In this document: piece after piece, positions 1,655 to 15,610 of the stretch | Numbering within the stretch: position 1 is the stretch's first letter | How the letters are laid out: every line of letters begins with the position of its first letter | Assembly (NCBI RefSeq): GCF_036226405.1 | Contig: NZ_CP108464.1 | Span: 8,618,001-8,682,000, forward strand | Direction: 5' to 3' | Length of the DNA: 64,000 bases | From: Streptomyces sp. NBC_01260 | GTDB taxonomy: Bacteria; Actinomycetota; Actinomycetes; Streptomycetales; Streptomycetaceae | Translations under genes and position numbers: made by a program | Notes under the pieces: generated by a model | The model's input: only the letters and a program-made list of their open reading frames with translations | Told to the model about the DNA's origin: nothing | Database searches by the model: none

Positions 1655-1920
1655 CGCCGACGACGCGCCGGCCGCGCCGGAGCCCGGCGCGGTCCCACCC
1701 GGAATGTCCTGGGCGCATCGGGCACTGGCCCTGCTCGACCTCCGTCACGCCCGATGGGAGTCCGCCCGCACCCGCCTGGCCGCCCTTCACACCGGACCGG
1801 CGAGATACCGGCTCTCCGGCCTGCGCCGCATTCCTGACCTGGTCGAGGCAGCAGTGCGGGTTCGACCGGCCGGATGATGCCCGCGAGCGGCTCGCACGGA
1901 TCGCGGACCGGGCATACGAT
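1655..1920 (+). pseudogene. fragment of a large LuxR/AAA-type regulator (TPR region)
   Basis: The plus strand encodes MSWAHRALALLDLRHARWES, continuing RLAALHTGPARY and RIPDLVEAAVRVRPAG then a stop; a one-base shift restores DDARERLARIADRA. This order of motifs (ALALLDL, W..A...L, DLVEAAVR, A...L) is typical of the helical repeats before the HTH of large LuxR-family ATPase regulators. No ATPase or HTH domain remains, so it is a short frameshifted relic. Confidence 0.45.
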
Positions 1921-1938
1921 GCCACGCGTTGTACAGGG

Positions 1939-3081
1939 TCAGGACAGGCTGCCGCGGAGGGCGTTGACGCGCTCGGCGCCTGCGTCGAAGGCCGGCCCGT
2001 CGAGAGTGCCGGCCGTCAGCGCGTCGCTCAGCGCGGTCACCGCCTGGTCCCCCTGGGCGGCGTCGCGGCCCGAACACAGGATCAGGTCCATGCCGGCCGT
2101 GGCGGCCAGTACGGCGCGCTCCGCCGTGCTGCCGTAGGCCCGCAGAGCCCCGGCCTCCAGGGCGTCGGTGACCGTCACGCCCCGGAAGCCGAGCCGGTTG
2201 CGCAGCTCGCCGACGATGGTCGGGGACAGGCCGGCGGGCCGGTCGGCGTCCAGCGCCCGGTAGACGGCCCAGGACAGCATGACCAGCTTGGTCCCGGCAG
2301 AGATCGCCGCTCGGTACGGAGCCTCGTCGATGCTGCGCAGCGTCGACGCGGACGTCGTGAGGGTGACGGGACCCAGGTCGGTGTTCTGGTTCGCGGAGGC
2401 GGGGCCGAGGCCGGGGAAGTGCTTGGCGGTGGCGGCCACCCCGGCGTCCTGCTGCGCGGTGATGAAGGCCGAGCCGCAGGTGCCCACCGCCTCCTGGTCC
2501 TTGCTGTACGACCGCTTGTACTGGTCGGTGAAGTCGCCGGCCGCGCGGTACACGTCGAGCACCGGCGCCAGGTTGACGTTCATGCCGACGCCCGCGAGGT
2601 TCATGCCCGCACCGCTGCCGGTGAACTCCGCCCGTCCCTCCGGGTCCGCGGAGGCACCGACTTCCTTCGCGGACAGCACAGGCTCGCCGGGCAGGCGGCG
2701 CACCAGGCCACCCTCTTGGTCGGTCATCAGGAGCAGCGGGGCCGTCACGGGCGCGGAGGCGTTCGCCTCGTTCATCTCCTGGATGACGCCCTCGATCTGG
2801 CTCAGGCTCTTGATGTTCTCCCCGAAGAAGATCACCCCGGCCGTACGGCCCTGCCTGATCGCGTCCATCAGCCGGGCCGGAGGCGTGAGTCCCGGGTAGG
2901 AGTGGATGACGCACTGCCCGGCGCGCTGTTGCGGGGTCAGGGCGGCCAAGGGGGAGCGTGCCCTTTCGGGATTTCGTACGGCCGCGTCCGCACGGCCGGC
3001 CAGCCCCAGCCCGCCGGCCAGGGCCGCCGTTCCGGCGAGCAGAGCGCCGCGCCTGCTGAGGGGCTGTGGTGTCGAGCTCAT
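1939..3081 (-). CDS. exported glycoside hydrolase family 3, beta-N-acetylhexosaminidase-like
   Basis: Probable secreted GH3 enzyme of about 380 residues, of the NagZ-like branch that removes terminal N-acetylglucosamine from peptidoglycan fragments or chitooligosaccharides. The chosen ATG (3081) follows AAGGAGAGAGTC and gives a twin-arginine type leader (LSRRGALLAG then a long Ala/Gly stretch) ending near ADAA, residue 34. Family landmarks are TDQEGG (residues 120-125), KHFPGLG (220-226, the histidine loop) and VTVTDALEAG, in which D306 is the expected nucleophile. It lies about 150 bases downstream of a secreted GH25 muramidase on the same strand, so the two may act together on cell walls. 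Substrate is inferred. Confidence 0.85.
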   Translation of the reverse strand: MSSTPQPLSRRGALLAGTAALAGGLGLAGRADAAVRNPERARSPLAALTPQQRAGQCVIHSYPGLTPPARLMDAIRQGRTAGVIFFGENIKSLSQIEGVIQEMNEANASAPVTAPLLLMTDQEGGLVRRLPGEPVLSAKEVGASADPEGRAEFTGSGAGMNLAGVGMNVNLAPVLDVYRAAGDFTDQYKRSYSKDQEAVGTCGSAFITAQQDAGVAATAKHFPGLGPASANQNTDLGPVTLTTSASTLRSIDEAPYRAAISAGTKLVMLSWAVYRALDADRPAGLSPTIVGELRNRLGFRGVTVTDALEAGALRAYGSTAERAVLAATAGMDLILCSGRDAAQGDQAVTALSDALTAGTLDGPAFDAGAERVNALRGSLS

Positions 3082-3237
3082 GACTCTCTCCTTCGCGAAC
3101 TGTCGTTGTGCCCGGCCGGGGCAGTCGGCCGCAACTCCGGGTCGGAGCAGGGCAGCCGGCCTGCTCCGACCCGCGGTACCGATCACGTCGGGGTCGCAAT
3201 CCTCCCGGACGTGGTCACCGGGCTCCGGGACCCGCTG

Positions 3238-4122
3238 TCACGGGGTGTTGTTGGCCAGGGCAAGCAGTCGGGAGCGATCGCCGCTGAAGCGGTCGCGGTC
3301 GACGTTCCCGGAGATGCCGCTCACCGAGCCGGTGGACGTGTACTGCCACACGGTCCAGAACGGGAATCCCTGCGGAATGCTGGGGCTGCCCGCGGAGGTC
3401 CAGTGGGCCACCCACAGCGGGCTCCTGGTGGACATGCCCGTCCAGCCACCGGTGCAGGAGTTCCACCAGCTCGGGCTGGTGTAGATCACGACGTCGCGGC
3501 CGGTACGGGCCTTGTACGTGTTGTAGAAGTCGAGGATCCAGGACTGCATCGCCGCGGGCGTCTTGCCGTAGCAACTGCCCTCGATGTCCAGTACGCCGGG
3601 GAGTGTCAGGTTGTCGCGGGACCAGGCGCCACCGTTGCCGGCGAAGAAGTTCGCCTGCGCCGCGCCACCGGACACGTCGGGCCGCGCGTAGTGGTACGCG
3701 CCCCGGATCACGCCGGCGTTGTAGGCGCCCAGGTAGTTGGCGCTGAACGTGGGGTCCTTGTACGAGGTGCCCTCGGTCGCCTTCATCCAGGCGAACTCGA
3801 TGCCCGCGCCGCGGACCGAACTCCAGTTGATGCTGCCCTGGTAGCTGGAGACGTCCATACCAACGGGGTTCGCCAGAAGGTCCGTATCTGGTGTCGTGTC
3901 GAGGTTCAGCTGCCGGGTGTCCGGCTTGAAGTGCTTGCTGTCCTGGACGTAGCCCACGCCCATGTAGCCCTTGCCCGGTGGCACGGCGCTGTCGGACGCC
4001 AGTGGCGCCGAGGAGGCGGTGCCCGACATCAGGCTGAGGGTCAGTGCGGCGCTCAGGCCGAGGACACCGGCCACGGTGAGTCTTTGCTGTACGGACTTGA
4101 GGGAAAGGCTCCGGGGGAACAA
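3238..4122 (-). CDS. secreted GH25 muramidase (cellosyl/M1-type lysozyme)
   Basis: Predicted extracellular 1,4-beta-N-acetylmuramidase that hydrolyses the MurNAc-GlcNAc bond of peptidoglycan. I choose the TTG at 4122 because AGGAGG sits five bases upstream; this gives 294 residues with a clean Sec signal peptide (hydrophobic stretch about residues 17-34, cleavage near ASSA). The mature part contains NPVGMDVSSYQG (D90), AWMKATEG and GVLDIEG, in which D179 and E181 form the conserved DxE pair, then the late WQYTSTG and VDRDRF of GH25. An N-terminal spacer of about 50 residues (GKGYMGVGYVQD...) precedes the catalytic domain and is common in Streptomyces members. The GH3 hexosaminidase is next downstream. 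Confidence 0.92.
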   Translation of the reverse strand: MFPRSLSLKSVQQRLTVAGVLGLSAALTLSLMSGTASSAPLASDSAVPPGKGYMGVGYVQDSKHFKPDTRQLNLDTTPDTDLLANPVGMDVSSYQGSINWSSVRGAGIEFAWMKATEGTSYKDPTFSANYLGAYNAGVIRGAYHYARPDVSGGAAQANFFAGNGGAWSRDNLTLPGVLDIEGSCYGKTPAAMQSWILDFYNTYKARTGRDVVIYTSPSWWNSCTGGWTGMSTRSPLWVAHWTSAGSPSIPQGFPFWTVWQYTSTGSVSGISGNVDRDRFSGDRSRLLALANNTP

Positions 4123-4484
4123 GGATTCCTCCTGCTTGGTGGGGGGTGAGATGCAGTGGTGCCGAGTGGTCCTTCGGTGCGGTGGATCTCGGCGCGCCGG
4201 TGTGGGAGCGGCGCGCCGGACAGAAAGGTCTGCGTGCATCCGGGCAGAAGCAGACGGCCGCGCTTCCCGTAGAGGGATCTACGCGCGTCCATTTGACGCG
4301 AACACGACACAGTCAGCCACAGGAGCGTGCCTGCGGTAAATAGTTTTCCGATTCGTTAGTGGTCTAGGCCTATCTGTACGCCGGTGAGCTGCGGAAACGG
4401 ATTGACCTCGGCAGAACTTTCTTCAAGTGGTGTGAGCGGGAGAAGAATTGGCGGGTCGGTCGTCCAGATCGGGAGGGGAGCCCT
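4123..4484. other. divergent intergenic region
   Basis: A 362-base space between the muramidase (minus) and the plus-strand gene at 4485. It must hold both promoters. It is noticeably more AT-rich around 4335-4380 (taaatagttttccgattcg), but I could not assign -35 and -10 boxes with confidence and see no coding sequence. Confidence 0.4.
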
Positions 4485-5138
4485 ATGAGGCGCAGCCGAC
4501 GCGTGCCCACTGTCCGCCCTGGGGCTTATATGTCAGTCGCACTCGCTGTCGTCCGTGCCGTGACCTCAAGTGATCATCTGCTCGATCTGGTCCGGCGCAT
4601 GCCGGATGTCCATGAGCTGCTCCGGTCGTTCTTCAGCTACGACATCGGGCGCAAGCGCTGCGGCGACGGCTTGACACTTGCCTCGGGGCGGCTTCTGGAG
4701 CCAATCGGCGGAGAGTTCGCCGGTGGCGCGTATCTCCTGTGCGCCGAGAAGGACGGCCGCCGGCCGATGCTCTTCGCCGGTTCCGAAGGCGAGGGCGGGC
4801 TGATCGCCGATGACCTGACGGGCGCGCTGGAGATCATCATCGGGCTGGCTTGGCAGGACTGCCTCACGTTCTCCGGCGGCGGCGATGTGGGGGGCATGCA
4901 GTCCACCGCCCAGTACCTGGAACGGTCACTGGTCAGGGACAACCCGCAGATTGCCGAGGAACGTGCCGCTGTGGCCGCGGCCCTGTCCCTGCGCGTTGTC
5001 CCTGTCGCCGACCTTGTCATCCGGCTGCAGGAATCCGCTTCGAGAACCGAACCCGACTACGTGGTTGCTGAGGACGGGCAGGCGTACGACTCGCCGTTCG
5101 GCGAGTACTCGGAGCCTCGTCTCGGCGGCCGGCGCTGA
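4485..5138 (+). CDS. conserved hypothetical protein, SUKH/SMI1-like
   Basis: A 217-residue cytoplasmic protein; the ATG follows GGGAGGGGAGCCCT. I do not recognise a defined enzyme. The middle part (GGAYLLCAEKDGRRPMLFAG, then EGGLIADDLTGALEIIIGL ending in WQDCL) has the rhythm of SUKH-type immunity proteins: a beta strand reporting a residue-rich turn, then 'A.DL..ALE.IIGL'. The C-terminus is polar and proline/glycine rich. There is no toxin gene next to it. Function is unknown; immunity or regulatory ligand binding is inference. Confidence 0.65.
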   Translation: MRRSRRVPTVRPGAYMSVALAVVRAVTSSDHLLDLVRRMPDVHELLRSFFSYDIGRKRCGDGLTLASGRLLEPIGGEFAGGAYLLCAEKDGRRPMLFAGSEGEGGLIADDLTGALEIIIGLAWQDCLTFSGGGDVGGMQSTAQYLERSLVRDNPQIAEERAAVAAALSLRVVPVADLVIRLQESASRTEPDYVVAEDGQAYDSPFGEYSEPRLGGRR

Positions 5139-5300
5139 AACGGGCGATGTCCGGGGCGTCAGCCGCGTCGGCCGCACCTCTCTGATGGGCAGGTGACGGG
5201 CGTCCGGGACGAATGCGTGCGCACGCGGCACAACCATCTTTGCTTTTCGCGGGTCACATCAAGTGGGAGCAATCCGCTCTCAGGGACACAAGGGGGATAT

Positions 5301-5750
5301 ATGAGAAGCGCACGTAATGTCGCGACCGTCGGGGCGTTGACCACACTGGTGTTGGGCGCCACGGCTGCGTTCTGCACGACCGCCTCCGCCGCGCCCAATG
5401 TCACACCGCAGGGCGTCTGTGGTGGCGCCTACAAGACCGTGAACTCAGTGCCCGTCGGCTCGCTGGGCACCGCCTACCTGACGTACAACTCCGCGAACGG
5501 CAAGAACTGCGTCGCGACCATCCGTACCAACCCGGGCACGGCCAAGGACATGTCCACCTACGTCTACGTCTCCGACACCGACGACTGGGCCGGGGACTCC
5601 GGGAACTACACGTCGTACGCGGGGCCCGCCTACGTCTACGGCAAGGGCCACTGCGTGAGTTGGGGCGGCAACATCAGCAACGTGTACGTGTCGGTGGAGA
5701 ACTCCAACTGTGCAAGGCTCAAGGAGCATCGGGTCACCGAAGTCCGCTGA
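5301..5750 (+). CDS. secreted spore-associated protein (SapA-like)
   Basis: Small exported protein (149 residues). The ATG at 5301 follows AGGGGGATAT. Residues 1-31 form a Sec signal peptide (RSAR..., hydrophobic core GALTTLVLGATAAF, cleavage after ASA). The mature chain carries the family pattern CGGAYKTVNS, GTAYLTYN, NCVATIRTNPG, a tyrosine-rich YAGPAYVYGKG stretch and C.SWGG, with four cysteines likely forming two disulfides. This is the pattern annotated as spore-associated protein A in streptomycetes, found on spore surfaces. Homologues I recall end soon after ENSNC; here about 12 extra polar residues follow, perhaps from loss of the original stop. Confidence 0.8.
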   Translation: MRSARNVATVGALTTLVLGATAAFCTTASAAPNVTPQGVCGGAYKTVNSVPVGSLGTAYLTYNSANGKNCVATIRTNPGTAKDMSTYVYVSDTDDWAGDSGNYTSYAGPAYVYGKGHCVSWGGNISNVYVSVENSNCARLKEHRVTEVR

Positions 5751-6006
5751 TCCGGCGCGCCACCCGGCCGCGAGGCCCCGTGCTGCCGCTACCCGGCGTC
5801 CGGCCGTCGTTCCGCTGACGGCTGGCGGGCGGGTATCCATGAGCCGTAGGCAGCGCGGGATCTCGCGGCGGGCCGCCACGCCCCGGCAGAGGTGGGGGCT
5901 ACGTCCGTCGGGTTTGCCGCATTCGGCGGATGCCGTCTTCAGCACGGAGCGCGTGCGTCGTCGCCCCGCAGCAGTGGACGTGGACCGGTCACGTTGTGGA
6001 CGTACA

Positions 6007-6390
6007 TCAGCTGCGTGAAGTGCCCTCGGCGCGGGCGACCTTGTGGGCCCACAGAACCAGGGGAATCTGCAGGGGGAGCCGACCGAAGGCCGCGGCCCTC
6101 GGCAAGGCGGGGCGGTGTCGCCAGTCGAGGGCCATCTGGACATTGGCGGGAAAGACACCGACGAGGAAACCGGCGGTCGCGCGGGCCGCGATGCGCCGCG
6201 TCCGGGGGTGGACGAGTCCGGCGGCGAGCGCGCATTCGACCACGCCGCTCGCGTACGTCCACGCACGCGGCGTACCGGGCAGGACCCTCGGAACGGTCCC
6301 GTCGAACACCTTGGGAACCGTGACGTGGAGAACTCCGGCCCCGGCCGGCAGCCCGGCGAGGAGGAAGGGGGAGCGAGTCGTCCGGGGCAT
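6007..6390 (-). CDS. DoxX-like small membrane protein
   Basis: A 127-residue membrane protein with about four hydrophobic segments: 8-22, 45-60, 69-84 and 105-118. AAGGAGACCC precedes the ATG. The arrangement (AGVLHVTVPKVFDG near the start, then P..W.YASG..E.ALAAGL, and LQIPLVLWAHKVA at the end) resembles short DoxX-family proteins of streptomycetes. The reaction is unknown; family members are linked to quinone or redox stress functions. It precedes the sirtuin on the same strand in gene order, separated by about 145 bases. Confidence 0.65.
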   Translation of the reverse strand: MPRTTRSPFLLAGLPAGAGVLHVTVPKVFDGTVPRVLPGTPRAWTYASGVVECALAAGLVHPRTRRIAARATAGFLVGVFPANVQMALDWRHRPALPRAAAFGRLPLQIPLVLWAHKVARAEGTSRS

Positions 6391-6535
6391 GGGTCTCCTT
6401 CAACGGCAGGTTCGTGACATGCTGCCATTCCCGGTGCGAGGGCGAGCCGGGTACGAAGCCGGTGGACGGGTCCGGGGCCCAGCCGGGATGTGGAGATCGC
6501 GGCCCGTGCGAGCCACGCCACCTCCACCACCCCTG

Positions 6536-7441
6536 TCAGGCAGGCCCTGCCGCCTCATCGCCGAGGGGGGTGCCTACTTGGCCGGCCACGGCGCTGAGGG
6601 CCGTTCCCAGCGGGAGCGCGATGCGGGTGACGGCGTGCCGGTCGCCCCGGGTCGGGTCCCGGTTGACGATCAGCACCGGCTTTCCGGCCTGGGCCGCCTG
6701 GCGGACGAACCGGAGCCCGGACATCACCGTCAGCGAAGAGCCAAGGACCAGCAGTGAGGTCGCCCCGCGGACCAGTTCGCGGCAGTGCTCGACCCGCAGC
6801 GGGGGCACGGCTTCGCCGAAGAACACCACGTCCGGCTTGAGGACGCCTTCGCAGACCGTGCAGGACACCGTGCGGAAGTCCCCGACCTGCTCGTCGGTGA
6901 GGTCGGCGTCACCATCCGGGTTGATCGCGGCAGCCACTGGCTCGAAGCCCGCATTGGCCTCCTCCAGCCGCCGCGCGACTTCGCGGCGCGAGGTGAAGGT
7001 GCCGCAGGAAAGGCAGACGACCCGGTCCAGGCTTCCGTGGAGTTCCACGATGCCCTCGCTGCCGGCGGCCTGGTGCAGGCCGTCGACGTTCTGGGTGATC
7101 ACACCCGAGAGCAGGCCCTGCCGCCCGAACGCGGCCACGGCTCGGTGCCCGGCGTTGGGGCGGGCACGGCCGAAGGTGCGCCAGCCGAGGTGGCTGCGCG
7201 CCCAGTACCTGCGCCGGGCCTGGGCGCCGGCAGTGAAGTCCTGGTAGGTCATCGGGGTGTGCCGGCTCAGGCTCCCGCCCTCGCCACGGTAGTCGGGGAT
7301 GCCCGACTCCGTGGAGATACCGGCCCCGCTGAGCACCAGGACGCCGCCGGTGCTCAGAGCGTCGGCGATCGGCTCCACATCCGTGGTGGCGGGCGGTAGG
7401 TCCTCGGTGGGGGACCAGCTCAGAGTGGGGCGCATGCGCAT
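6536..7441 (-). CDS. Sir2-family NAD-dependent protein deacylase (sirtuin)
   Basis: Cytoplasmic enzyme that removes acyl groups from protein lysines, consuming NAD and giving nicotinamide and O-acyl-ADP-ribose. The 301-residue sequence has all signatures: GAGISTESGIPDYR (39-52, NAD binding), TQNVDGLH (116-123), catalytic H135 in ELHGS, and a structural zinc site formed by C143/C146 and C194/C197, then VVFFGE and LGSSLTV. The 45 residues between the cysteine pairs are longer than in CobB and include an acidic patch. Alternative start codons (MRMRP at the first or third residue) make little difference. Targets cannot be told from the sequence. Confidence 0.93.
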   Translation of the reverse strand: MRMRPTLSWSPTEDLPPATTDVEPIADALSTGGVLVLSGAGISTESGIPDYRGEGGSLSRHTPMTYQDFTAGAQARRRYWARSHLGWRTFGRARPNAGHRAVAAFGRQGLLSGVITQNVDGLHQAAGSEGIVELHGSLDRVVCLSCGTFTSRREVARRLEEANAGFEPVAAAINPDGDADLTDEQVGDFRTVSCTVCEGVLKPDVVFFGEAVPPLRVEHCRELVRGATSLLVLGSSLTVMSGLRFVRQAAQAGKPVLIVNRDPTRGDRHAVTRIALPLGTALSAVAGQVGTPLGDEAAGPA

Positions 7442-7771
7442 GCCTCAAGAGTACGGAACCGGGTGCCACCACCCGCGTGTGGCGTCGATGGCGCCGCAAT
7501 GCCGCCAGAGGGTGTGAGCCCAGCGCTCCGTCGGTTGCCGGCCTCCCTCGCACCCGTCGTCGCCAAGCACCGCGACCAATCCCACGGCCGCCTCCTCCAG
7601 ACGCTCACGCGTACGGCACGTACTGCCTCGCCGGCCGCCGACGGAGATACCGACGGAGCTGCCGGTCCCCGTGATCACCGGCGAAGCGGACGCCCCGTCC
7701 GGAGGCAGTGATGAAGTCCGACACCGTGGCGACGCCTGGCGCCCGTGCCGCCCTCGCCCGCCGGGCCCGGT
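7442..7771. other. intergenic region, no gene seen
   Basis: A 330-base stretch between the sirtuin start and the stop of the membrane protein gene. It should contain the sirtuin promoter. Open frames here are short, have no plausible ribosome site and look like random GC-rich translation. Confidence 0.4.
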
Positions 7772-8815
7772 TCAGTTCTGCCGCACCACCGGCACCGAGG
7801 CGCAACCGCGGAGCCTCGCGTCCCTGCGTGCCCGGCCGGGCGACGCGCCGGTTCCCACCACCCGGCCGTCGAGGACCGCGAGCCAGCCGCCGTCGGGCAG
7901 GCGGTCCTGCCCCTCTTCCGCGTCGGCGGGTTCGAGGGCCCCCAGCAATGCCGGGTCGGGGTCCTTCGGGGTGGCGGCCGCTGCCGCCCCCGGTGCTCCC
8001 GCGCGCCACTCTGCCACGGTCCGTTCGGCTCCCCGGGCACGTACCCACAGCACGTGCTGGACCACGATCAGCGGGCCGAGTGCCGTCAGGAGCGGGAACG
8101 CCCCGGTCAGCGCCCCGAGGGCGAACAGCAGACTGATGGCCGCGGACACCGCCAGCGCGATCCCGGCCGCGAGGAAACCGGCGGCCCGTCCGAAGGCCTT
8201 GTTCGCCACCAGCGGGAAGAGCACCAGGAGCAACAGGTCGCCCAGTCCGAGCGCCACGGGCGGATCGCCCCGTGTGACGGCCAGCAGCGGGGCGAACGGC
8301 AGCCCCATGACCTGGGTGGCGAACCGGTCCATGACCGAGGTGAGCCCCGTCGCCACCAGGTCGTAGCAGGCGAGCGCGCCCGCGAACCACGCGGCGTGGG
8401 CGGAGCGCATACCGCTCTGCGCCCACATGTTGGCCACTCCCACGACAGCGATCGCGAGCAGCACATCGGTGAGCACCATCACGGCGATCGGCCGGTCCGC
8501 GAACGCGCATCCGGCGGTGGCCGCGACCGAGCCGAGCGCGACCACCCACGCCCGGCCCCCGCCGAACAGGGGCGCGAGGGTGAACTGGCTTGCCGCGCAG
8601 AGAACCAGACCGAAGACGACCGCCACCGCGGCGCGGGGCAGTTCCAGATAGACCAGCGGAGCCGCCACGACCACGGCGGACACCACGGCGACGTCGGGCA
8701 GTTCGTAGCGGCCGACCGGAGGGCGGGGCATCCGGACCCGGCCGAAGTACGCGGCGCCCGCCGCCGTGATCGCGGCGACGCAGCAGTTGAGGCCCACCAG
8801 GGCGGCGGCGCTCAT
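7772..8815 (-). CDS. polytopic membrane protein with presenilin-like YD...GxGD motifs
   Basis: A 347-residue protein whose first 258 residues form about nine membrane segments and whose last 90 are a soluble Ala/Asp-rich tail. Segment 6 contains Y151-D152 (ALACYDLVATG) and segment 7 opens with G190-L-G-D193 (VALGLGDLLLLVLFP); the last segment has LTALGPLIVVQH where presenilins carry PAL. Two membrane aspartates in YD and GxGD contexts in adjacent segments are the signature of family A22 and related GxGD intramembrane aspartyl proteases. The ATG overlaps the stop of the upstream ligase gene by four bases (ATGA), so the two are translationally coupled. I infer an intramembrane protease; a non-proteolytic transporter-like role remains possible because the PAL motif is altered. 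Confidence 0.6.
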   Translation of the reverse strand: MSAAALVGLNCCVAAITAAGAAYFGRVRMPRPPVGRYELPDVAVVSAVVVAAPLVYLELPRAAVAVVFGLVLCAASQFTLAPLFGGGRAWVVALGSVAATAGCAFADRPIAVMVLTDVLLAIAVVGVANMWAQSGMRSAHAAWFAGALACYDLVATGLTSVMDRFATQVMGLPFAPLLAVTRGDPPVALGLGDLLLLVLFPLVANKAFGRAAGFLAAGIALAVSAAISLLFALGALTGAFPLLTALGPLIVVQHVLWVRARGAERTVAEWRAGAPGAAAAATPKDPDPALLGALEPADAEEGQDRLPDGGWLAVLDGRVVGTGASPGRARRDARLRGCASVPVVRQN

Positions 8816-10278
8816 GCCGGACTCGCGACGCGTACCGCGGCGGGGCGGACCGACTCGAAGGTGTGCTCCCGCAGATCGGCGCGGACCGGGCCGGTCGGTG
8901 GCATCGAGGCCAGGTCGTCGTGGAGCACGATCGCGTCCAGTGCGAGGCCAGCGGCGGTGGCCCGCTCCTCCAGCCTTCCGAGCAGACCGGCGGAGGGCAG
9001 CCGGCGGACCAGGACGTGGAGGCGCGGGCCCGGGGGCCCGTCGACCAGGGCGTAGCGCGCGGGCAGCGGGATGTCCGGCTCCGCCTCCAGCAGGTTCAGC
9101 ACCGACCAGGTGGGTACCTCGCGGCTCAGCGGACCGGTCCAGCGGCCGAGTACCGGTGAGGTCGCGGGCAAGTGGGCCAGCTCGCACGTGGTCGCGCTCT
9201 CGGGGAGCCGGACCAGGTCGCCGGTCGCGTACCGCAACAGCAGGGTGCAGTCCCGGTAGGGGACGTACGGGGTCTGGACGATGATGCCGACGGCGCCCGG
9301 TGGCGTCGGCGCGTGGGTCACGGGGTCGAGTATCTCCAGGTGCCCGAATTCGGTGGTGTGGTGCAGATGCCCCTCGGCGCACGGCGTACCGCCCGACGGC
9401 ACGGTCTCGGTCATCATGTACGAGGTGGAGACCTTGGCGCCCAGGGCCGCCGCGGCCCGCTCCCTCAGCGGATCGGAGAGCACTTCGCCGCCCACACCGA
9501 TGGACTCGAGGCCGAAGTCCGATGGCTTCCAGCCGCTCCGCTCCGCCTCTTCGACGAGGGCGGAGAGGTAGGACGCGGAGACCGTCAGGTGGGTGATCTG
9601 CGGCGCCTTGCCGCGCAATCCGAGAGGGGCGGCGAGCCGGTCCAGCGCCACCGCCGGGTCCACAGTGCCGATCTGGACGAACGAGGCGCCGATCCGGGTC
9701 ACCGACTCCTCCACGTTGAGCAGCGGCAGGGTCGCCCGGGAGCACCCCGCGTACGCGATGGTGTGACGGGGGCGCAGACCCATGCCGAGGACGGCCGAGA
9801 CCGTGCTCATGGCCACCGCGATCTCCACCTCGGCCCGGGAGTACCAGACAGCCGTGGGGGTGCCGCTCGTCCCCGTGGTGAGCGCCATCAGCGCGGGAGC
9901 GGAAGCGGCGGACACGAAGGCCGCCGGCAGGCTGCGCAGGGCCGCCTTCGATGTGACCGGCACCTGGTCCCAGGTGTCCGGTGTGAGTGTGCGCGGGTCG
10001 AGCGCCAGGCTGACGAACGTCCGGCGGTAGTAGGCCGTGTGCTGGGCGGCGGCCCGAGCTGTCGCCCGCAGACTGCGCTCGGTCACGGTACGCCGTACGG
10101 CGGGGTCGACGGCCCCTGCCTGGCCGGGCAGCAGGGCCGAGTCCGCGCCCGGCTCGCCGAACTCCGCGAGGGTCGCGATCAGGTCCCGGGCGATGCGCTC
10201 CAGGTCCTGTGGGCGGATGCGGCGGTTGCGCAGGATCGCCGCGCCGTATCGGAGCTGGCTGAGCGCGGTTGCGAACAA
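8812..10278 (-). CDS. PaaK-like adenylate-forming enzyme (phenylacetate-CoA ligase family)
   Basis: Cytoplasmic 488-residue member of the PaaK branch of adenylate-forming enzymes, expected to activate a carboxylate with ATP to an acyl-AMP and possibly pass it to a thiol or amine. The nucleotide loop is LTTGTSGTPTAVW; later come IGVGGEVLS, TSYMMTETVPSG (substrate/adenine loop) and LLRYATGDLVRL (the ATP-ribose aspartate). The C-terminal lysine loop typical of ANL ligases is not obvious. TTG at 10278 is chosen because AGGAGG lies six bases upstream. The gene follows a 22-codon peptide gene and a strong hairpin and overlaps the membrane protein gene downstream, suggesting that it modifies a peptide or lipid made in this unit. 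The true substrate is unknown. Confidence 0.75.
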   Translation of the reverse strand: MFATALSQLRYGAAILRNRRIRPQDLERIARDLIATLAEFGEPGADSALLPGQAGAVDPAVRRTVTERSLRATARAAAQHTAYYRRTFVSLALDPRTLTPDTWDQVPVTSKAALRSLPAAFVSAASAPALMALTTGTSGTPTAVWYSRAEVEIAVAMSTVSAVLGMGLRPRHTIAYAGCSRATLPLLNVEESVTRIGASFVQIGTVDPAVALDRLAAPLGLRGKAPQITHLTVSASYLSALVEEAERSGWKPSDFGLESIGVGGEVLSDPLRERAAAALGAKVSTSYMMTETVPSGGTPCAEGHLHHTTEFGHLEILDPVTHAPTPPGAVGIIVQTPYVPYRDCTLLLRYATGDLVRLPESATTCELAHLPATSPVLGRWTGPLSREVPTWSVLNLLEAEPDIPLPARYALVDGPPGPRLHVLVRRLPSAGLLGRLEERATAAGLALDAIVLHDDLASMPPTGPVRADLREHTFESVRPAAVRVASPA

Positions 10279-10292
10279 GGGAGCCTCCTGAC

Positions 10293-10324
10293 GCCTGGAC
10301 CGGGGCTGAACTCCCGGTCCAGGC
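10293..10324 (-). promoter_or_regulatory. perfect 12-bp hairpin between peptide and ligase genes
   Basis: Arms gcctggaccggg (10293-10304) and cccggtccaggc (10313-10324) pair perfectly around an eight-base loop. It sits 13 bases after the stop of the micropeptide and before the ligase ribosome site. There is no U tract. Such hairpins between a short precursor gene and a following enzyme gene often give partial termination or protect the upstream mRNA, so that much more peptide than enzyme is made. Confidence 0.75.
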
Positions 10325-10337
10325 CGGGGCTGATCCG

Positions 10338-10406
10338 TCAGACCATGCTGGCGAACATCGCCGCTGTGAGCGTGCTGAAGGCGTACTTGACGTAGTGCTT
10401 GACCAT
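10338..10406 (-). CDS. 22-residue hydrophobic micropeptide
   Basis: A very short gene starting ATG at 10406 with an extended purine-rich ribosome site (GGAGAAGGGAGATCCACC) just upstream. The product begins MVKHYVKYAF and ends MFASMV. It has two lysines and a histidine in the first seven residues and then an almost uncharged Ala/Met/Phe/Ser/Thr segment, i.e. a membrane-seeking amphipathic peptide. No signal-peptidase site or lanthipeptide-style leader is seen. The gene stands first in a unit with an adenylating enzyme and a putative intramembrane protease, which makes a peptide precursor or signalling peptide the best guess; a membrane toxin or a leader peptide for attenuation are alternatives. 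Its reality rests on the ribosome site, the context and the hairpin, not on homology. Confidence 0.6.
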   Translation of the reverse strand: MVKHYVKYAFSTLTAAMFASMV

Positions 10407-10754
10407 GGTGGATCTCCCTTCTCCGGGCCGTCCCTCAGGGCGGCTGGGCTCCATGTGGCGCACTCCCGGCCGAGGACGGCCGATCGATGAACGAGACATT
10501 AGAGGAGGGGAGTTGATGTCTCAACGGTCTCTTCCGACTTACTGGCGGTCAGCAGGAATTTCCCGGCCGGAGGCTCACCCCGACCGGCAGGCTTTCCCGG
10601 CTGCCAGGCCTCCCCGGCCGGAACCCTGACGGCCTCGCGGGCACAGCGGTGGCGAGAAGCGAGAACCGGATCAGGCACACGCGGAGCTTCGTCCCCGCCG
10701 TGTCACGCGCTCACGAGACACCTACGTATTCGGCGTTTCGCCAGAAGGGGGCCC
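10407..10754. other. upstream region of the micropeptide unit, with an IS-end-like motif
   Basis: A 348-base space that must contain the promoter of the micropeptide unit (minus strand). At 10511-10525 lies agttgatgtctcaac, an inverted repeat GTTGA-4-TCAAC, followed at the same spacing by ttccg; the same block recurs at 59674-59699. No coding sequence is recognised. Confidence 0.4.
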
Positions 10755-11420
10755 CTACGGGACGTCAGACCGGCGGCGCGCGAGAAGGAGTCCCCCGAGC
10801 CTGCTCTCGGCTGAGGCAAGAGTCCTCTGTGTCTCGACGGCGAAGCCGGCATCGTTGAGCCAAGCAGCCAATTGGCTGGGCCGGCGGCGATGGACGCAGA
10901 TCTTCATCGGGTGGCCGCCGTACCCCTGCGTCTTCAGCTCCGGCTCGTCCCCGACGTGGAAACTGAGCAGCAGTGGGCCACCGGGCCTCAGTACTCGCCG
11001 GAAGTGCGTGAGGACCGAACTCATCTCGTCGTCGGGGACGTGGATGAGCGAGTACCAGGCGACCAGGCCGGCCATGGAGCGATCGGCGAGGTTGAGCGCC
11101 GTCATGGACCCGAGGTCGAACCGCAGGCCGGGGTGATCGCGCCGGGCCACCTCGATCATCCCGGGGGAGAGGTCGATCCCGAACGCGTCCACGCCCAGTT
11201 CGCACAGGTGGGCGGCGATCCTCCCCGGTCCGCACCCCACGTCCGCAACCGGGCCCCCGCCGTTCGTGCGCACCAGGCGGGCGAACAGCGCCAGGAAAGC
11301 GCGCTCCTCGGGCGTCTCATCCAGAAGGTTCCGCACCTGGTCCGCATAGCTGTCAGCCACGGTGTCGTAGGACGTCCGGGTGTCTTCCAGCCAGTTGTCA
11401 GTGTTCAGTCCATTTCCCAC
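10755..11420 (-). CDS. class I SAM-dependent methyltransferase
   Basis: A 221-residue cytoplasmic methyltransferase with the Rossmann-type motifs: YDTVADSYADQV near the start, motif I VADVGCGPGR (about 58-67), an acidic strand end FGIDLSPGM (D pairs with the ribose of SAM), the motif IV region GLVAWYSLIHVP and RVLRPGGPLLLSF. This is the UbiE/Methyltransf_11-25 type acting on small molecules; the substrate is not predictable. It is upstream of, and in the same direction as, the micropeptide unit, but 348 bases separate them, so co-transcription is doubtful. GTG or ATG alternatives exist at the start (MGNGLNTDNW). Confidence 0.85.
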   Translation of the reverse strand: MGNGLNTDNWLEDTRTSYDTVADSYADQVRNLLDETPEERAFLALFARLVRTNGGGPVADVGCGPGRIAAHLCELGVDAFGIDLSPGMIEVARRDHPGLRFDLGSMTALNLADRSMAGLVAWYSLIHVPDDEMSSVLTHFRRVLRPGGPLLLSFHVGDEPELKTQGYGGHPMKICVHRRRPSQLAAWLNDAGFAVETQRTLASAESRLGGLLLARRRSDVP

Positions 11421-11736
11421 GACGACAGGCTATCCAGCAGCCCGAAGGAAGGGAGGTGATCGGCTGGTTCGGAGAACGGTTGGTGCGCGCGCACGGGCAC
11501 ATGGCGGCGGCAGCCGCCAACAGCCCAGCCAGCCGCCGCTTGAGCAGTGGTTGATCCGGATGCCGTGACAATCCGGCCGGCCGACCGTCCGCCCCGGTGA
11601 TGACCACCGACGATCACCATTCGTGAAAGGTGTCGGGCCGCTGATCCCTCCGCTCGGGGATCGTGTGCCCGCGCTGTCGTCCGCGCGGAGCGCGGCCGAT
11701 TCGCTCGGGGTGAGTACAGCTGAATAGGGACTGATG
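11421..11736. other. divergent promoter region
   Basis: Space between the methyltransferase (minus) and the dehydrogenase pair (plus). No coding sequence recognised; the operator at its right end is listed separately. Confidence 0.4.
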
Positions 11737-11763
11737 GACATCGGACGTAAGATGTCCGATGTC
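11737..11763 (+). promoter_or_regulatory. perfect inverted-repeat operator upstream of the dehydrogenase pair
   Basis: Arms gacatcggac (11737-11746) and gtccgatgtc (11754-11763) are exact inverted repeats separated by seven bases, ending 31 bases before the ATG of the first Gfo/Idh gene. ACATCGGAC-type palindromes upstream of sugar and polyol genes in streptomycetes fit GntR (FadR/FCD) regulators; no such regulator gene is in the neighbourhood, so it would be encoded elsewhere. Confidence 0.7.
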
Positions 11764-11794
11764 TTAGATTTGGTCATCGAGTGAGGAGTCGCGG

Positions 11795-12841
11795 ATGAGC
11801 CCCGTCCCAGTGCCCGGAGAGAAGAGGTCGCGCGGCCCCGGACAGCAGGGAAGCGACCACCGTGTGGCTGTCATCGGTGCGGGCGCCATCGCCCGCGATC
11901 ACGTCACCGCGCTCGCGGACGTTCCAGGACTGCGACTGGCCCATGTCGTCGACCGGCATCCCGAACGGGCCGCCGCGCTGGCCGCTCTCGCCGAGGGCGC
12001 CACATGGTCCACCGATCCGGCGACCGCGTGGTCCGACGGCGTTGACGTCACCGCCGTGTGCACCTCTCCCGAGTCACACACCGAACTCTCCGTGGCCGCC
12101 CTCGAGGCAGGCAGGGCGGTCCTGTTGGAGAAGCCCGCCGCGCTGAAGGTGGCCGACGTCGACCGGATCCTCGCGGCCGCGAGGACTGCCGGCCGGCCCC
12201 TGCTCGTAGCTCAGACGGCTCGCTTCCAGCCCGTCCACCTGGAGATCGCCCAAGCGGTCGCCGAAGGCGCGATCGGCACGCCCCGGCTGGCACACCTCAC
12301 CTGGTACACCGGGCATGTCTGGCCGGGCGGCTGGCGGGGCTGGCAACTGGACCCCTCCCGCTCCGGAGGACATGTCGCCCATAACGGCGTGCACGCCCTC
12401 GACCTGCTGACCTGGCTCATGGACGACGAACCGGTCCGGGTGTTCGCCCGCCCCTGCCGCACGTGGTCATCCGGGATGCCGACCCCCGACAGCTTCCAGA
12501 TCCTCGTACGCTTCGCCGGCGGTGCTCTCGCCACCATTGAGCTGTGCTACGCCCTCGTCGCACGCGGCACGTTCGTCCGCAGACTCATGCTCTCCGGCAC
12601 GGCCGGTACCCTGCACCACAGCAGCGAGGACGAGCCGCGAGCGCACTCCGCGTCGCCCGTCGCCCCCGCTTCGATCGAGGGCGCGATGACCGAGCAGACC
12701 AGACACCTGCGCGACGTGCTCGACGGCGTCGCGGCCCCGCTGACCGCACCTCACCAAGTGCGTGCTGCCCTCGCCGCCGCGTTGGCGGCGCAGCTCAGTG
12801 CGGACGAAGGCCGCCCCGTCGACGTAAAGGAGGTCTGCTGA
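11795..12841 (+). CDS. Gfo/Idh/MocA family oxidoreductase
   Basis: NAD(P)-dependent dehydrogenase of 348 residues, probably acting on a sugar, sugar acid or inositol. After about 20 polar residues comes the Rossmann glycine motif VAVIGAGAIARDH, then VCTSPESH, the cofactor/substrate motif LLEKPAAL (with the conserved lysine) and GGHVAHNGVHALDLLTWLM, whose His-x3-Asp arrangement is the expected catalytic region. GAGGAGTCGCGG precedes the ATG. The next gene starts one base after its stop and encodes a paralogue, so the two form an operon that may act on consecutive or related substrates. A perfect palindrome at 11737-11763 probably controls it. Confidence 0.88.
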   Translation: MSPVPVPGEKRSRGPGQQGSDHRVAVIGAGAIARDHVTALADVPGLRLAHVVDRHPERAAALAALAEGATWSTDPATAWSDGVDVTAVCTSPESHTELSVAALEAGRAVLLEKPAALKVADVDRILAAARTAGRPLLVAQTARFQPVHLEIAQAVAEGAIGTPRLAHLTWYTGHVWPGGWRGWQLDPSRSGGHVAHNGVHALDLLTWLMDDEPVRVFARPCRTWSSGMPTPDSFQILVRFAGGALATIELCYALVARGTFVRRLMLSGTAGTLHHSSEDEPRAHSASPVAPASIEGAMTEQTRHLRDVLDGVAAPLTAPHQVRAALAAALAAQLSADEGRPVDVKEVC

Positions 12842-12842
12842 A

Positions 12843-13904
12843 ATGAGAATCCTCATCGCATCCGGGGTGCGGCACGCCCGTGACTACGTGCCGCTGCTGA
12901 GGTCGATGCCCGGCATCGAGGTCGTCGGCTGCGCCGACACCGCCGACAGTCCGTTCGCCGAGGACAGCGCAGCCCTCGCGGGCGCGACGGGCATTCCGCT
13001 GCTCGACCTGGACCAGGGCCTTGCCCGCTGCGACATCGCCCTCGTGTGCAGCGAGCCCACACGCCACGTCGACCTCGCGGTGAGAGCGCTCGAAGCGGAC
13101 CGGCACGTGCTCGTCGACAAGCCTGCCGCGACCGACACGCGTGGCGCACAGCGCCTGTGGGACGCCGCCGACCGCTCGCGCGGGCTGCTCAGTGCCGTGC
13201 ACCGCCTCCACTCTCCACAGATCGCTCGTGCCCGGCGCATCGTGGACTCCGGTGCGATCGGCCTGCCCCTCGCCGTCGATGCGGAGTGGCTCGCGGCCGG
13301 CGGGCTCGACGGAGCCACCGTCGAGCGCCCCGAACTGGTCTGCGACCCCGCCCTGTCCGGCGGCGGCGAACTGATGAACTTCGGGTGGTATCCGGCCCTG
13401 GCGATCCGGCACCTGACCGGCCTGGAGGTGGAGGAGGTCGTCGCCTTCAGCAGCGCCGCACCCCATGCGCCGCTCTTCGACGGCCCGCACGGCGCCCACG
13501 GAGTCGAGGACGCGGCCGTTCTCTCGCTCAGGCTGCGCAATGGAGTGGTGGCAACAGCCACCGTGGCCCGCACACCCGCCGGCGTCGGCCCGGCCCCCGT
13601 CTCGTCCACCGTGCGCGTCCTCGGCTCGCACGGCCACGTACTCGCCGACGAGGACGCTCCCTCGGTCGCCGTGCGCGCGGCGGACGGCTACAGCGTCTCC
13701 CGCCCGGTCGGCGGGCCGGCCGGGGCGACGGCGCTGCGGCGGCTGTTCACCGAGTTCTGCGACGACATCCGCTACGCGCGCACCCCGTTGGTGACGGCGG
13801 CCGATATTCACGCGGCCGTCGCGGTGGTCGAGGCCGCGCTGTCCTCCGCGCGCGAGGACGGTGTCCCTGTCGCCCCCGCCGTCCGTGCTACGGGCGTGGC
13901 CTGA
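12843..13904 (+). CDS. Gfo/Idh/MocA family oxidoreductase, second of pair
   Basis: A 353-residue paralogue of the preceding protein, translationally coupled (AAAGGAGG lies inside the end of the upstream gene). It keeps LVCSEPTRH, VLVDKPAATD (the conserved lysine in the EKP-type motif, here DKP) and a GGGELMNFGWYPALAIRHL catalytic segment. The N-terminus reads MRILIASGVRHARDYVPLL, so the usual GxGxxG dinucleotide loop is degenerate, as in some Gfo/Idh subfamilies. Together with its partner it probably oxidises or epimerises a sugar-derived substrate; no transporter or kinase is adjacent to say which. Confidence 0.85.
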   Translation: MRILIASGVRHARDYVPLLRSMPGIEVVGCADTADSPFAEDSAALAGATGIPLLDLDQGLARCDIALVCSEPTRHVDLAVRALEADRHVLVDKPAATDTRGAQRLWDAADRSRGLLSAVHRLHSPQIARARRIVDSGAIGLPLAVDAEWLAAGGLDGATVERPELVCDPALSGGGELMNFGWYPALAIRHLTGLEVEEVVAFSSAAPHAPLFDGPHGAHGVEDAAVLSLRLRNGVVATATVARTPAGVGPAPVSSTVRVLGSHGHVLADEDAPSVAVRAADGYSVSRPVGGPAGATALRRLFTEFCDDIRYARTPLVTAADIHAAVAVVEAALSSAREDGVPVAPAVRATGVA

Positions 13905-14091
13905 CGGGCTTGCGCGCTGGGCGTCGATTCATCGGCCTGGACAGACGATCTCGCCTGCGGCGTCGACCGGAGCCTGGAGTTTGTAGCCGCGCAGGCTCCT
14001 GTCCGGGAACTACCTGTTTCTCCTGATTGCGCGGCAACCCTCGGAGTGGGGAACCGCACCGCCACCGACGTGTTTGTCGTCGAAGGCGGTG

Positions 14092-14132
14092 CCCGGTGAA
14101 CTCCGCCCCGCCCGGGGGCGGAGTTCACCGGG
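14092..14132. terminator. strong bidirectional terminator hairpin
   Basis: An 18-base arm cccggtgaactccgcccc (14092-14109) is followed after five bases by its exact complement (14115-14132). It lies between the convergent dehydrogenase operon (ending 13904) and the PAP2 gene (ending 14210) and can serve both. Nothing else is recognisable in the 305-base gap. Confidence 0.8.
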
Positions 14133-14209
14133 CGACCCGCCGTGTCCTCGCCCCGGCCGCCCAGACCCTCTTGCGACTGGAGCCCGTACGACTCCCGATG
14201 GGACATGAC

Positions 14210-15610
14210 TCAAACCGGTTCGGGCAGCGGTTCCGGCTGTCGCGCTGGGACGATCTTCGGTTCCCACCGTTCGGTGGTCCGTACGTAGCCGTGGATCACC
14301 GAGGCCATCGCCAGAATGAGAAGTGGACCAAACACCCACGGATGGTTGGCCATCTCCATCGACAGATAGCGATAGGACACCAGGAGCGCAGCGAAGACCG
14401 TTGCACCGTAGACGACCAACTGGATTCCGGCCCGGTCCCAGCCGCGAGCGAGCGAGCGCAGGGCCGCCTCGATCGTGAGCGTGAACACCACGCCGGCAAT
14501 GATGTCCGCACCGTAGTGATAGCCGAAGCCCAGCGTTGCGCCGAGTGTGGCGATCAGCCAGAAGGCGCCTGCGAATTGGAGAGTGCGAGGGCCCTTGCGG
14601 GAATGGATGAAGATGGCGGTCGCCCATGCCGTGTGCAGACTGGGCATGCAGTTGCGTGGCGTGATCTCGTCGAATGACATGTGGTGTGGGGCAATGACCG
14701 GCGGCGTCGTGTTCGGCCAGAGGTTGGACACCGCCCAGTGTCCGCCGTCGGCGCCGTAGGCGAAGATCGGCCCGACCACCGGGAAGAGCACGTAGATGCC
14801 CGGCCCGAGGAGGCCGATGACGAGGAAGGTGCGCACCAGGTGATGGCCGGGGAAGCGGCGGTCGGCCGCCACGTTACGCAGCTGGTAGATCGCGACGACG
14901 ACCGCGGCCACCGCCAGCTGTGTGTAGACGGAGTCGAGAAAGCGGGCCCCGATCGGGCCGGTGGCGGTAACCATCCGGCCTACCAGCCACGACGGGTTGC
15001 CCAGCGCGTGATCGGCGGTTGCCACGTACTGGTCGAGCACTTCCGGGCGGGTCTTCGACGTGATGAGCAGCCAGGTGTCGCCGGTCTTGCGGCCGGCCAC
15101 CAGCAGCAGGCCCAGCCCGACGCCCTTGAGCAGCAGAACACGTTCCGCGCCTGTGCGGCGCGTGACAGCGATGACCGCGTAGCCCACAATCACCCACAAC
15201 GCGCCATTGCCGAAGGGATGGCCCTGGGTCACCTCGGCGTCGGCCGCCCACCGCACCAGCAGAATGGTGACGTCGATTCCTATCGCGACACCGACCGCGA
15301 TGAACCGTTGCCGCCAGGTGAGCACCACCATCATCAAGCCCATGCTGGCGTAGAGCAGGAAGCCCGATTGAGGGGCGACTATGACCTCTTGCGCCTGGGT
15401 GGTGATCGGCCCCGGCAGGCCGTAGTGACGTGCGGCGATCTCCAGCGCGATGAGGAAACCGAGCGTCACCACACCCGCTGTGGCCCACAGTATCGCTCGT
15501 GGTCCACGCCACGCGGCGAACGTGGTTCTGCTGGTTATTCGCGAAAACACCCGCGATGCTATAGGTATCAATTGTTTGGCCGATTTGTTAGATGTTAGTT
15601 GATAAGTCAC
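14210..15610 (-). CDS. polytopic PAP2-superfamily membrane protein (Aur1/Ipt-like)
   Basis: A 466-residue membrane protein with roughly ten to eleven hydrophobic segments. Near residue 305-340 it carries the PAP2 phosphoesterase region: RNCMPSLHTAWA (histidine motif) and later GFGYHYGADIIAG, in the spacing of Aur1/inositolphosphotransferase-like PAP2 proteins. It probably transfers or hydrolyses a phospho-group on a membrane lipid at the outer face. The longest frame opens with GTG at 15610 in AT-rich DNA with no good ribosome site; a later start around residues 20-35 is possible. It stands alone, with its promoter presumably in the AT-rich patch at 15545-15605. Confidence 0.75.
   Translation of the reverse strand: MTYQLTSNKSAKQLIPIASRVFSRITSRTTFAAWRGPRAILWATAGVVTLGFLIALEIAARHYGLPGPITTQAQEVIVAPQSGFLLYASMGLMMVVLTWRQRFIAVGVAIGIDVTILLVRWAADAEVTQGHPFGNGALWVIVGYAVIAVTRRTGAERVLLLKGVGLGLLLVAGRKTGDTWLLITSKTRPEVLDQYVATADHALGNPSWLVGRMVTATGPIGARFLDSVYTQLAVAAVVVAIYQLRNVAADRRFPGHHLVRTFLVIGLLGPGIYVLFPVVGPIFAYGADGGHWAVSNLWPNTTPPVIAPHHMSFDEITPRNCMPSLHTAWATAIFIHSRKGPRTLQFAGAFWLIATLGATLGFGYHYGADIIAGVVFTLTIEAALRSLARGWDRAGIQLVVYGATVFAALLVSYRYLSMEMANHPWVFGPLLILAMASVIHGYVRTTERWEPKIVPARQPEPLPEPV

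Follow-up and report, generated by a model that had tools for sequence, protein, structure and literature searches.

The window, a stretch of 64,000 nucleotides from Streptomyces sp. NBC_01260 (contig NZ_CP108464.1), carries on its minus strand a three-gene unit in which a 22-codon open reading frame (ORF) is followed by a hairpin, by the gene of a PaaK-type ligase and by the gene of a membrane protein with a predicted presenilin/signal peptide peptidase (SPP) fold (Table 1). An initial annotation, made from the letters of the window alone, had described the 22-codon gene with its extended ribosome site, the 12-bp hairpin, the TTG start of the ligase gene behind AGGAGG and a ligase stop codon overlapping the next ATG. 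All of these were found in place, the TGA of the ligase gene (8814-8812) and the ATG of the membrane-protein gene (8815-8813) forming a four-base ATGA overlap. The same annotation had read the last gene product as a nine-segment protein with YD and GLGD motifs; the motifs lie at residues 151-152 and 190-193 of the 347-residue protein, and its predicted model contains nine long helices. The DUF5678-like domain at the C-terminus of this protein was absent from that description. No known RNA element from Rfam matched at E 1 within 10200-10760, and no sigma-70 promoter or terminator pattern was detected within 10200-10800.

Table 1. Features of the three-gene unit, in window coordinates.
Feature	Position	Strand	Basis
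Micropeptide Shine-Dalgarno region AGAAGGGAG	10414..10422	-	direct reading
Micropeptide gene MVKHYVKYAFSTLTAAMFASMV	10338..10406 (22 codons 10406..10341, stop 10340..10338)	-	direct reading
Hairpin between micropeptide and ligase genes, 12-bp G+C stem	10293..10324	-	direct reading and folding
AGGAGG ribosome-binding site of the ligase gene	10284..10289	-	direct reading
488-residue PaaK-fold ligase of adenylate-forming type, TTG start at 10278	8812..10278	-	fold and motifs
347-residue nine-helix membrane protein, predicted presenilin/SPP fold	7772..8815	-	predicted model, motifs
Asp152 codon (YD motif, transmembrane helix 6, TM6), presumed catalytic	8360..8362	-	invariant in alignments A1 and A3
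Asp193 codon (GLGD motif, TM7), presumed catalytic	8237..8239	-	invariant in alignments A1 and A3
DUF5678-like domain at the C-terminus of the membrane protein, predicted to be cytoplasmic	7775..7900	-	alignment, Pfam, predicted model

Two tests had been proposed for the micropeptide: whether homologous ligase/protease pairs have a conserved short ORF beside them, and whether the 22 codons are under purifying selection. A related short ORF was found beside every ligase/membrane-protein pair, that is in 43 of 43 modules. Within Streptomycetaceae, the ratio of nonsynonymous to synonymous differences (pN/pS) was 0.36, a rough figure obtained by pooling all pairs among 20 distinct motif-selected sequences from 23 loci, and this points to purifying selection. 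The 43 modules comprise 33 loci from a scan of species genomes, in all of which the ligase gene immediately precedes that of the membrane protein, the loci L049, L050, L051, L055, L068, L070, L071, L079 and L081, and the window. They are non-independent and mostly from Streptomycetaceae; loci fetched twice were counted once (for example, L054 is L023 and L069 is L036), and the count includes L022, L039 and L047, where the contig ends within the membrane protein. Excluded were L052 (genome G019), a membrane-protein fragment without ligase or peptide; L080 (Nonomuraea gerenzanensis), which holds a partial ligase and a partial membrane protein with no motif match in 8.4 kb; and L053, L057, L072 and L073, which are C-terminal pieces of the membrane protein alone. 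No recognisable peptide gene was seen in the decayed loci L052 and L080.

The link between peptide and pair was also evident from a six-frame scan of 40 loci (607 kb) with a strict peptide motif. It gave 37 matches in 36 loci, L045 having two, and all of them were located at modules, with none elsewhere in the 40 loci. The motif did not catch the peptides of L043 and L044, while L052 and L053 are without a module; over the 64-kb window its single match was the micropeptide itself. A chance ORF was ruled out by these matches, placed at modules alone, together with the pooled pN/pS. The peptides of L044 and L071 do not fit the strict motif and were identified by visual inspection, and their profile score is circular because both were in the profile's alignment. 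The two intact copies of L043 gave E values of 8.9e-4 and 1.6e-3 against a profile built without this locus.

The place of the peptide gene is not fixed. At L046 it comes after the membrane-protein gene and has a AAGGAGGTGA site of its own. At L043, an Anaerolineales contig that had seemed to be the one pair lacking a peptide, three ORFs at 4410-5150 on the minus strand, two of them intact copies and one degenerate, lie past the membrane-protein gene and opposite to it in strand. The peptide gene therefore shifts position and strand yet stays with the pair. Tandem peptide genes were likewise found in a second Chloroflexota module, L045, with two copies at 6000-6208. Mirror-tree correlations over 37 loci were 0.96 for ligase and membrane protein, 0.91 for peptide core and membrane protein, and 0.95 for peptide core and ligase, values that could arise from shared ancestry alone. 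Among the other ORF families (at least 90 residues, outside the module) no family-wide extra gene was seen over 38 loci, none occurring in more than nine.

The 32 distinct peptides are 22-30 residues long. Their segment up to Tyr8 (window numbering) contains two to five Lys or Arg residues, and the segment after it has no acidic residue in any peptide and one basic residue in three; the window micropeptide has a basic N-terminal part and an uncharged, hydrophobic remainder. In a table of 29 distinct cores from 40 loci, which excludes L043, L079 and L081, Tyr8 is invariant and Phe18 is present in all but one. Positions 5, 7, 11, 13 and 15 have an entropy below 1 bit, with Lys or Arg at position 7 and Ser or Gly at position 11, and positions 6, 10, 17 and 19-22 are variable. 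The low-entropy positions include 5, 8, 11, 15 and 18 against the high-entropy positions 6, 10 and 17, a one-sided conservation. The tail past position 18 has three to seven residues, four in 17 of the 32 peptides, and is variable in sequence yet kept short. With its basic start and hydrophobic rest, the micropeptide looks like a short helix of the kind that remains of a signal peptide after signal peptidase, and it is probably membrane-bound. The predicted topologies are compatible with the action of an SPP-type enzyme on a peptide inserted N-in.

The assignment of the membrane protein to the GxGD/presenilin type was upheld by fold comparison of the predicted model, which has the nine-helix presenilin/SPP fold and an SPP-like topology, predicted as N-out/C-in. 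The YD and GxGD motifs are invariant in 24 of 24 rows of alignment A1 and in 12 of 12 rows of A3, GLGD being GMGD in three divergent members. There is no literal PAL motif; P241 and GP247-248, at the start of TM9, are invariant in A1. Eukaryotic SPP/SPPL, presenilin and the archaeal PSH (MCMJR1) have in common with this protein the nine-helix fold of its model, YD in TM6 and GxGD at TM7, and the two short strands before GxGD are likewise present in the model. The protein differs from them in sequence, with 12-18% identity in structural alignments, and by LGP, possibly in place of the literal PAL, by an optional DUF5678-like domain and by its fixed genomic link to a micropeptide and a ligase. 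In profile searches the window protein matched no Pfam family at E 0.1, none of 24 homologues matched an A22-type family, PF06550 found nothing in the genome even at E 10, and no sequence link to archaeal SPP was found. The DUF5678-like domain matched PF18929 at E 0.1 or better in 5 of the 24 homologues (best 0.00029), the window protein not being among them, and it is absent from three Chloroflexota and five actinobacterial A3 members, which end before it. At L053 (genome G002) and L057 (G263), the DUF5678-like region alone matches, L053 being without a ligase beside it. On its modeled fold and motifs, the membrane protein is predicted to be an intramembrane aspartyl protease of the presenilin/SPP fold.

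The PaaK assignment of the ligase was borne out by fold comparison and by motifs. The protein has the PaaK/ANL fold with its phosphate loop (TTGTSG) and core catalytic residues; T290-E291, T352, D354 and C300/H304/H306/C365 are invariant. Its closest folds are small-acid ligases or putative ones, namely PaaK1, BT_0428, 2-hydroxyisobutyryl-CoA ligase, NatL2, AjiA1 and ClxA. It is longer than PaaK1 by about 45 N-terminal residues, residue 55 of the model beginning opposite residue 9 of PaaK1, and it scores under every NCBIfam cut-off. It further differs from PaaK, BT_0428, NatL2, AjiA1 and ClxA in its constant genetic association with a membrane protease and a peptide.

The hairpin that separates the peptide and ligase genes proved to be beyond chance. 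Its stem GCCTGGACCGGG/CCCGGTCCAGGC is perfect over 12 bp and closes a loop of 8 nt; none of 100 dinucleotide shuffles produced an equally long stem, and the z-score of the minimum free energy was -4.4. The same analysis covered the 30 of 43 modules with spacers of at most 100 nt. The z-score was below -2 in 27 of them, the exceptions being L036, L038 and L047, and a stem of 11-20 bp (G-U pairs allowed) was present in 27, with stems of 7-8 bp in L020, L038 and L047. The hairpin sequences are unrelated among Streptomyces, Nonomuraea and the divergent subfamily. No T-run was found 3′ of the window hairpin. The likeliest role of the hairpin would be to raise peptide output over enzyme output, as expected if the peptide is a substrate or a product.

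The module is rare. Searches with the membrane protein, each scoring about 8,000 candidates that share most words with the query, returned 327 homologues at E 0.001 or better (best 120 of 327 listed) and, with divergent members as queries, an overlapping set of 389 (best 120 of 389 listed). Ten of 121 genomes of the genus matched the membrane protein: eight with pairs, one with a fragment (G019) and one with a C-terminal piece (G002). The ligase family, at E 1e-50 or better, was confined to the same eight. A search of the 121 genomes with a single MVKHY sequence as query found this type of peptide in five, all within these eight, and the remaining three have a divergent MSAIK-type peptide; the peptide profile was run on 11 genomes. 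A wider sample of the phylum gave matches in only 2 of 296 genomes, the window's own and one with a C-terminal piece. In Chloroflexota, 6 of 301 genomes matched: the two starting loci, two new pairs and two partial matches.

Conservation, linkage, predicted fold, motifs and hairpin together support a real and dedicated three-gene module, which we regard as highly probable. The best overall explanation, to which we give about an even chance, is that this system produces a modified peptide. The steps that we infer, from membrane insertion, cleavage and its site to adenylation and its substrate, the role of the hairpin, the product and its purpose, would run as follows. The micropeptide would insert in the membrane N-in/C-out, like a signal-peptide stub. 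The protease, of which the micropeptide is likely to be the substrate, would bind the peptide helix by its conserved face (Y5, Y8, S11, A15, F18) and cut near the border between conserved core and variable tail, so that an N-terminal fragment is freed towards the cytoplasm. There the PaaK-type ligase, a cytosolic enzyme, would form an acyl-AMP, most likely on the new C-terminal carboxylate of the peptide, and couple it to an acceptor that would not be encoded in the module; alternatively, it might place an outside acid on the peptide N-terminus or on Tyr8. Covalent action of the ligase on the peptide is slightly favored, and activation of the C-terminus would make up the larger share of such action. 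The hairpin between the first two genes would provide more peptide than enzyme.

The adenylation step is itself putative. From residue 375 of the ligase onward, no alignment column has Lys in at least 10 of the 38 sequences. Lys422 of PaaK and Lys418 of NatL2 contact the alpha-phosphate, whereas the C-terminal domain of this ligase is without a conserved lysine. R466, D468 and E471 are invariant there in the 38 sequences, and another residue may serve in place of the PaaK lysine. Set against the features of ribosomally synthesized and post-translationally modified peptides, the system has a conserved gene for a small precursor, linked in 43 of 43 modules to enzymes that may modify it. In its most specific form, a free signal-peptide-like stub would be cleaved by a presenilin/SPP-fold enzyme and joined through its new C-terminus to another molecule by a PaaK-fold ligase, giving a new class of ribosomal peptide or a signal; this we propose tentatively. 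The ligase would then be the first ANL-type enzyme known to us to work on the C-terminus of a ribosomal peptide.

In the best supported of the rival explanations, the ligase would activate a small aryl or fatty acid, the peptide would accept it at its N-terminus or Tyr8, and the protease would trim the peptide beforehand or afterwards, giving a membrane lipopeptide or signal. The nearest folds, small-acid ligases or putative ones, and the invariance of Tyr8 in 29 of 29 cores are consistent with this, and passages of PMC7204872 describe ester formation by NatL2 from acyl-AMP without CoA. However, the neighbourhood of the module has no conserved gene for an acid-making enzyme or a carrier protein, and since position 7 varies between Lys and Arg and position 11 between Ser and Gly, Lys7 or Ser11 is disfavored as acceptor. 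We consider acylation of the peptide rather doubtful. Next comes a micropeptide that would stay unprocessed and serve as a small structural or regulatory partner, either as a gate of the protease or as a membrane anchor for the ligase. One-sided conservation of the core suits helix packing, and strict co-occurrence would also be expected, but the hairpin 3′ of the peptide gene suggests an excess of peptide over enzyme, L045 and L043 each have a tandem pair of intact copies, and the tail varies in sequence while being kept short; such a subunit is unlikely.

A membrane-active, Hok-like toxin that the protease/ligase pair disarms, recycles or degrades appears improbable. The peptide is cationic and hydrophobic, and PMC10470546 describes RseP as cutting small membrane proteins that resemble remnant signal peptides and as suppressing HokB. 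A specific core kept across phyla would nevertheless be unneeded in a mere toxin, and degradation would need no ligase; furthermore, four proteins matched none of the PADLOC families at E 0.01, which rules out described defence families alone. Finally, a regulatory leader that attenuates the ligase/protease operon and has no peptide function would fit the position of the ORF, which precedes the ligase gene in 41 of 43 modules, and the strong hairpin in 27 of 30 spacers. It was rejected on account of L046, where the peptide gene follows the protease gene, and of L043, where it is encoded on the other strand, and, as amino-acid conservation also extends to Chloroflexota and no T-run terminator follows the window hairpin, it is largely refuted and retains hardly any probability.

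Three known systems resemble parts of the module. Their enzymes are of other types: MccB of microcin C has a different, E1-like fold, epipeptides are modified by radical S-adenosylmethionine chemistry, and Escherichia coli RseP is an S2P metalloprotease with several substrates, for which we know of no linked peptide gene or ligase. According to passages of PMC6495379, microcin C (MccA/MccB) is alike in its very short ribosomal peptide with a strong Shine-Dalgarno sequence of its own, near an adenylating enzyme in a minimal gene set, and MccB is a precedent for the adenylation of a ribosomal peptide; MccA is, however, a heptapeptide ending in Asn, and microcin C has an export pump in contrast to the intramembrane protease here. 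The epipeptide EpeX with its intramembrane M50 protease EpeP, and likewise TglG/TmoG, combine a ribosomal peptide with a membrane protease of the pathway, which in the passages of PMC10885120 is a metalloprotease as opposed to the presenilin fold here. RseP is alike as a membrane protease disposing of signal-peptide-like small proteins (PMC10470546). Each half of the system has a precedent, but the passages on these systems contain neither the combination nor the two enzyme folds that it uses.

Among the open-access PMC matches listed, subscription papers and preprints being outside their scope, none linked a bacterial presenilin/SPP-fold protease to a peptide and a ligase. In the passages at hand, the prokaryotic precedent of presenilin type is the archaeal MCMJR1/PSH, and presenilin itself is a subject of research on Alzheimer's disease and Notch. 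These comparisons suggest that the three-gene system is new, even though the fold of each enzyme is known. If the proposed scheme is true, presenilin/SPP-type proteases would gain a bacterial system of their own, with a constant genetic partner and probably a 22-residue natural substrate, and PaaK-fold ligases would join ribosomal-peptide chemistry, pointing to an unannotated Streptomyces product. Three genes and one short synthetic peptide make the question directly testable.

Turning to the surroundings of the module, a gene for a BTAD (AfsR/SARP-type) regulator lies convergent and just downstream of the membrane-protein gene in six Nonomuraea/Actinoallomurus loci (L033, L035, L036, L040, L041, L048), and Pfam confirmed BTAD in the five scanned; this hints at a control like that of specialised metabolism. 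No informative gene fusion was seen among eight long or divergent homologues, the sole Pfam match being AMP-binding in one ligase. In the homologue P0092 (512 residues), a piece of the membrane protein is joined behind an unrelated N-terminal part, which looks like a remnant of recombination. A phage-borne module was rejected, as searches gave no match in 50,697 phage records and no confirmed match in viral contigs.

The module is also present on two Streptomyces plasmids, and the peptide gene is unlisted in the gene table of the annotated plasmid, a table that is incomplete by design. On the 173-kb linear plasmid NZ_CP108387.1 (L079), the neighbours of the module are named like those of window positions 1900-15600: GH3, a GH25 lysozyme, a SIR2-type deacetylase, a methyltransferase, a spore-associated protein and a PAP2 phosphatase. 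In the window, the SIR2 and methyltransferase genes were checked with Pfam and the others were read from ORFs. This suggests exchange between plasmid and chromosome. An Actinoallomurus genome (G413) holds two complete modules of different subfamilies (L068 and L069), each with the matching peptide type.

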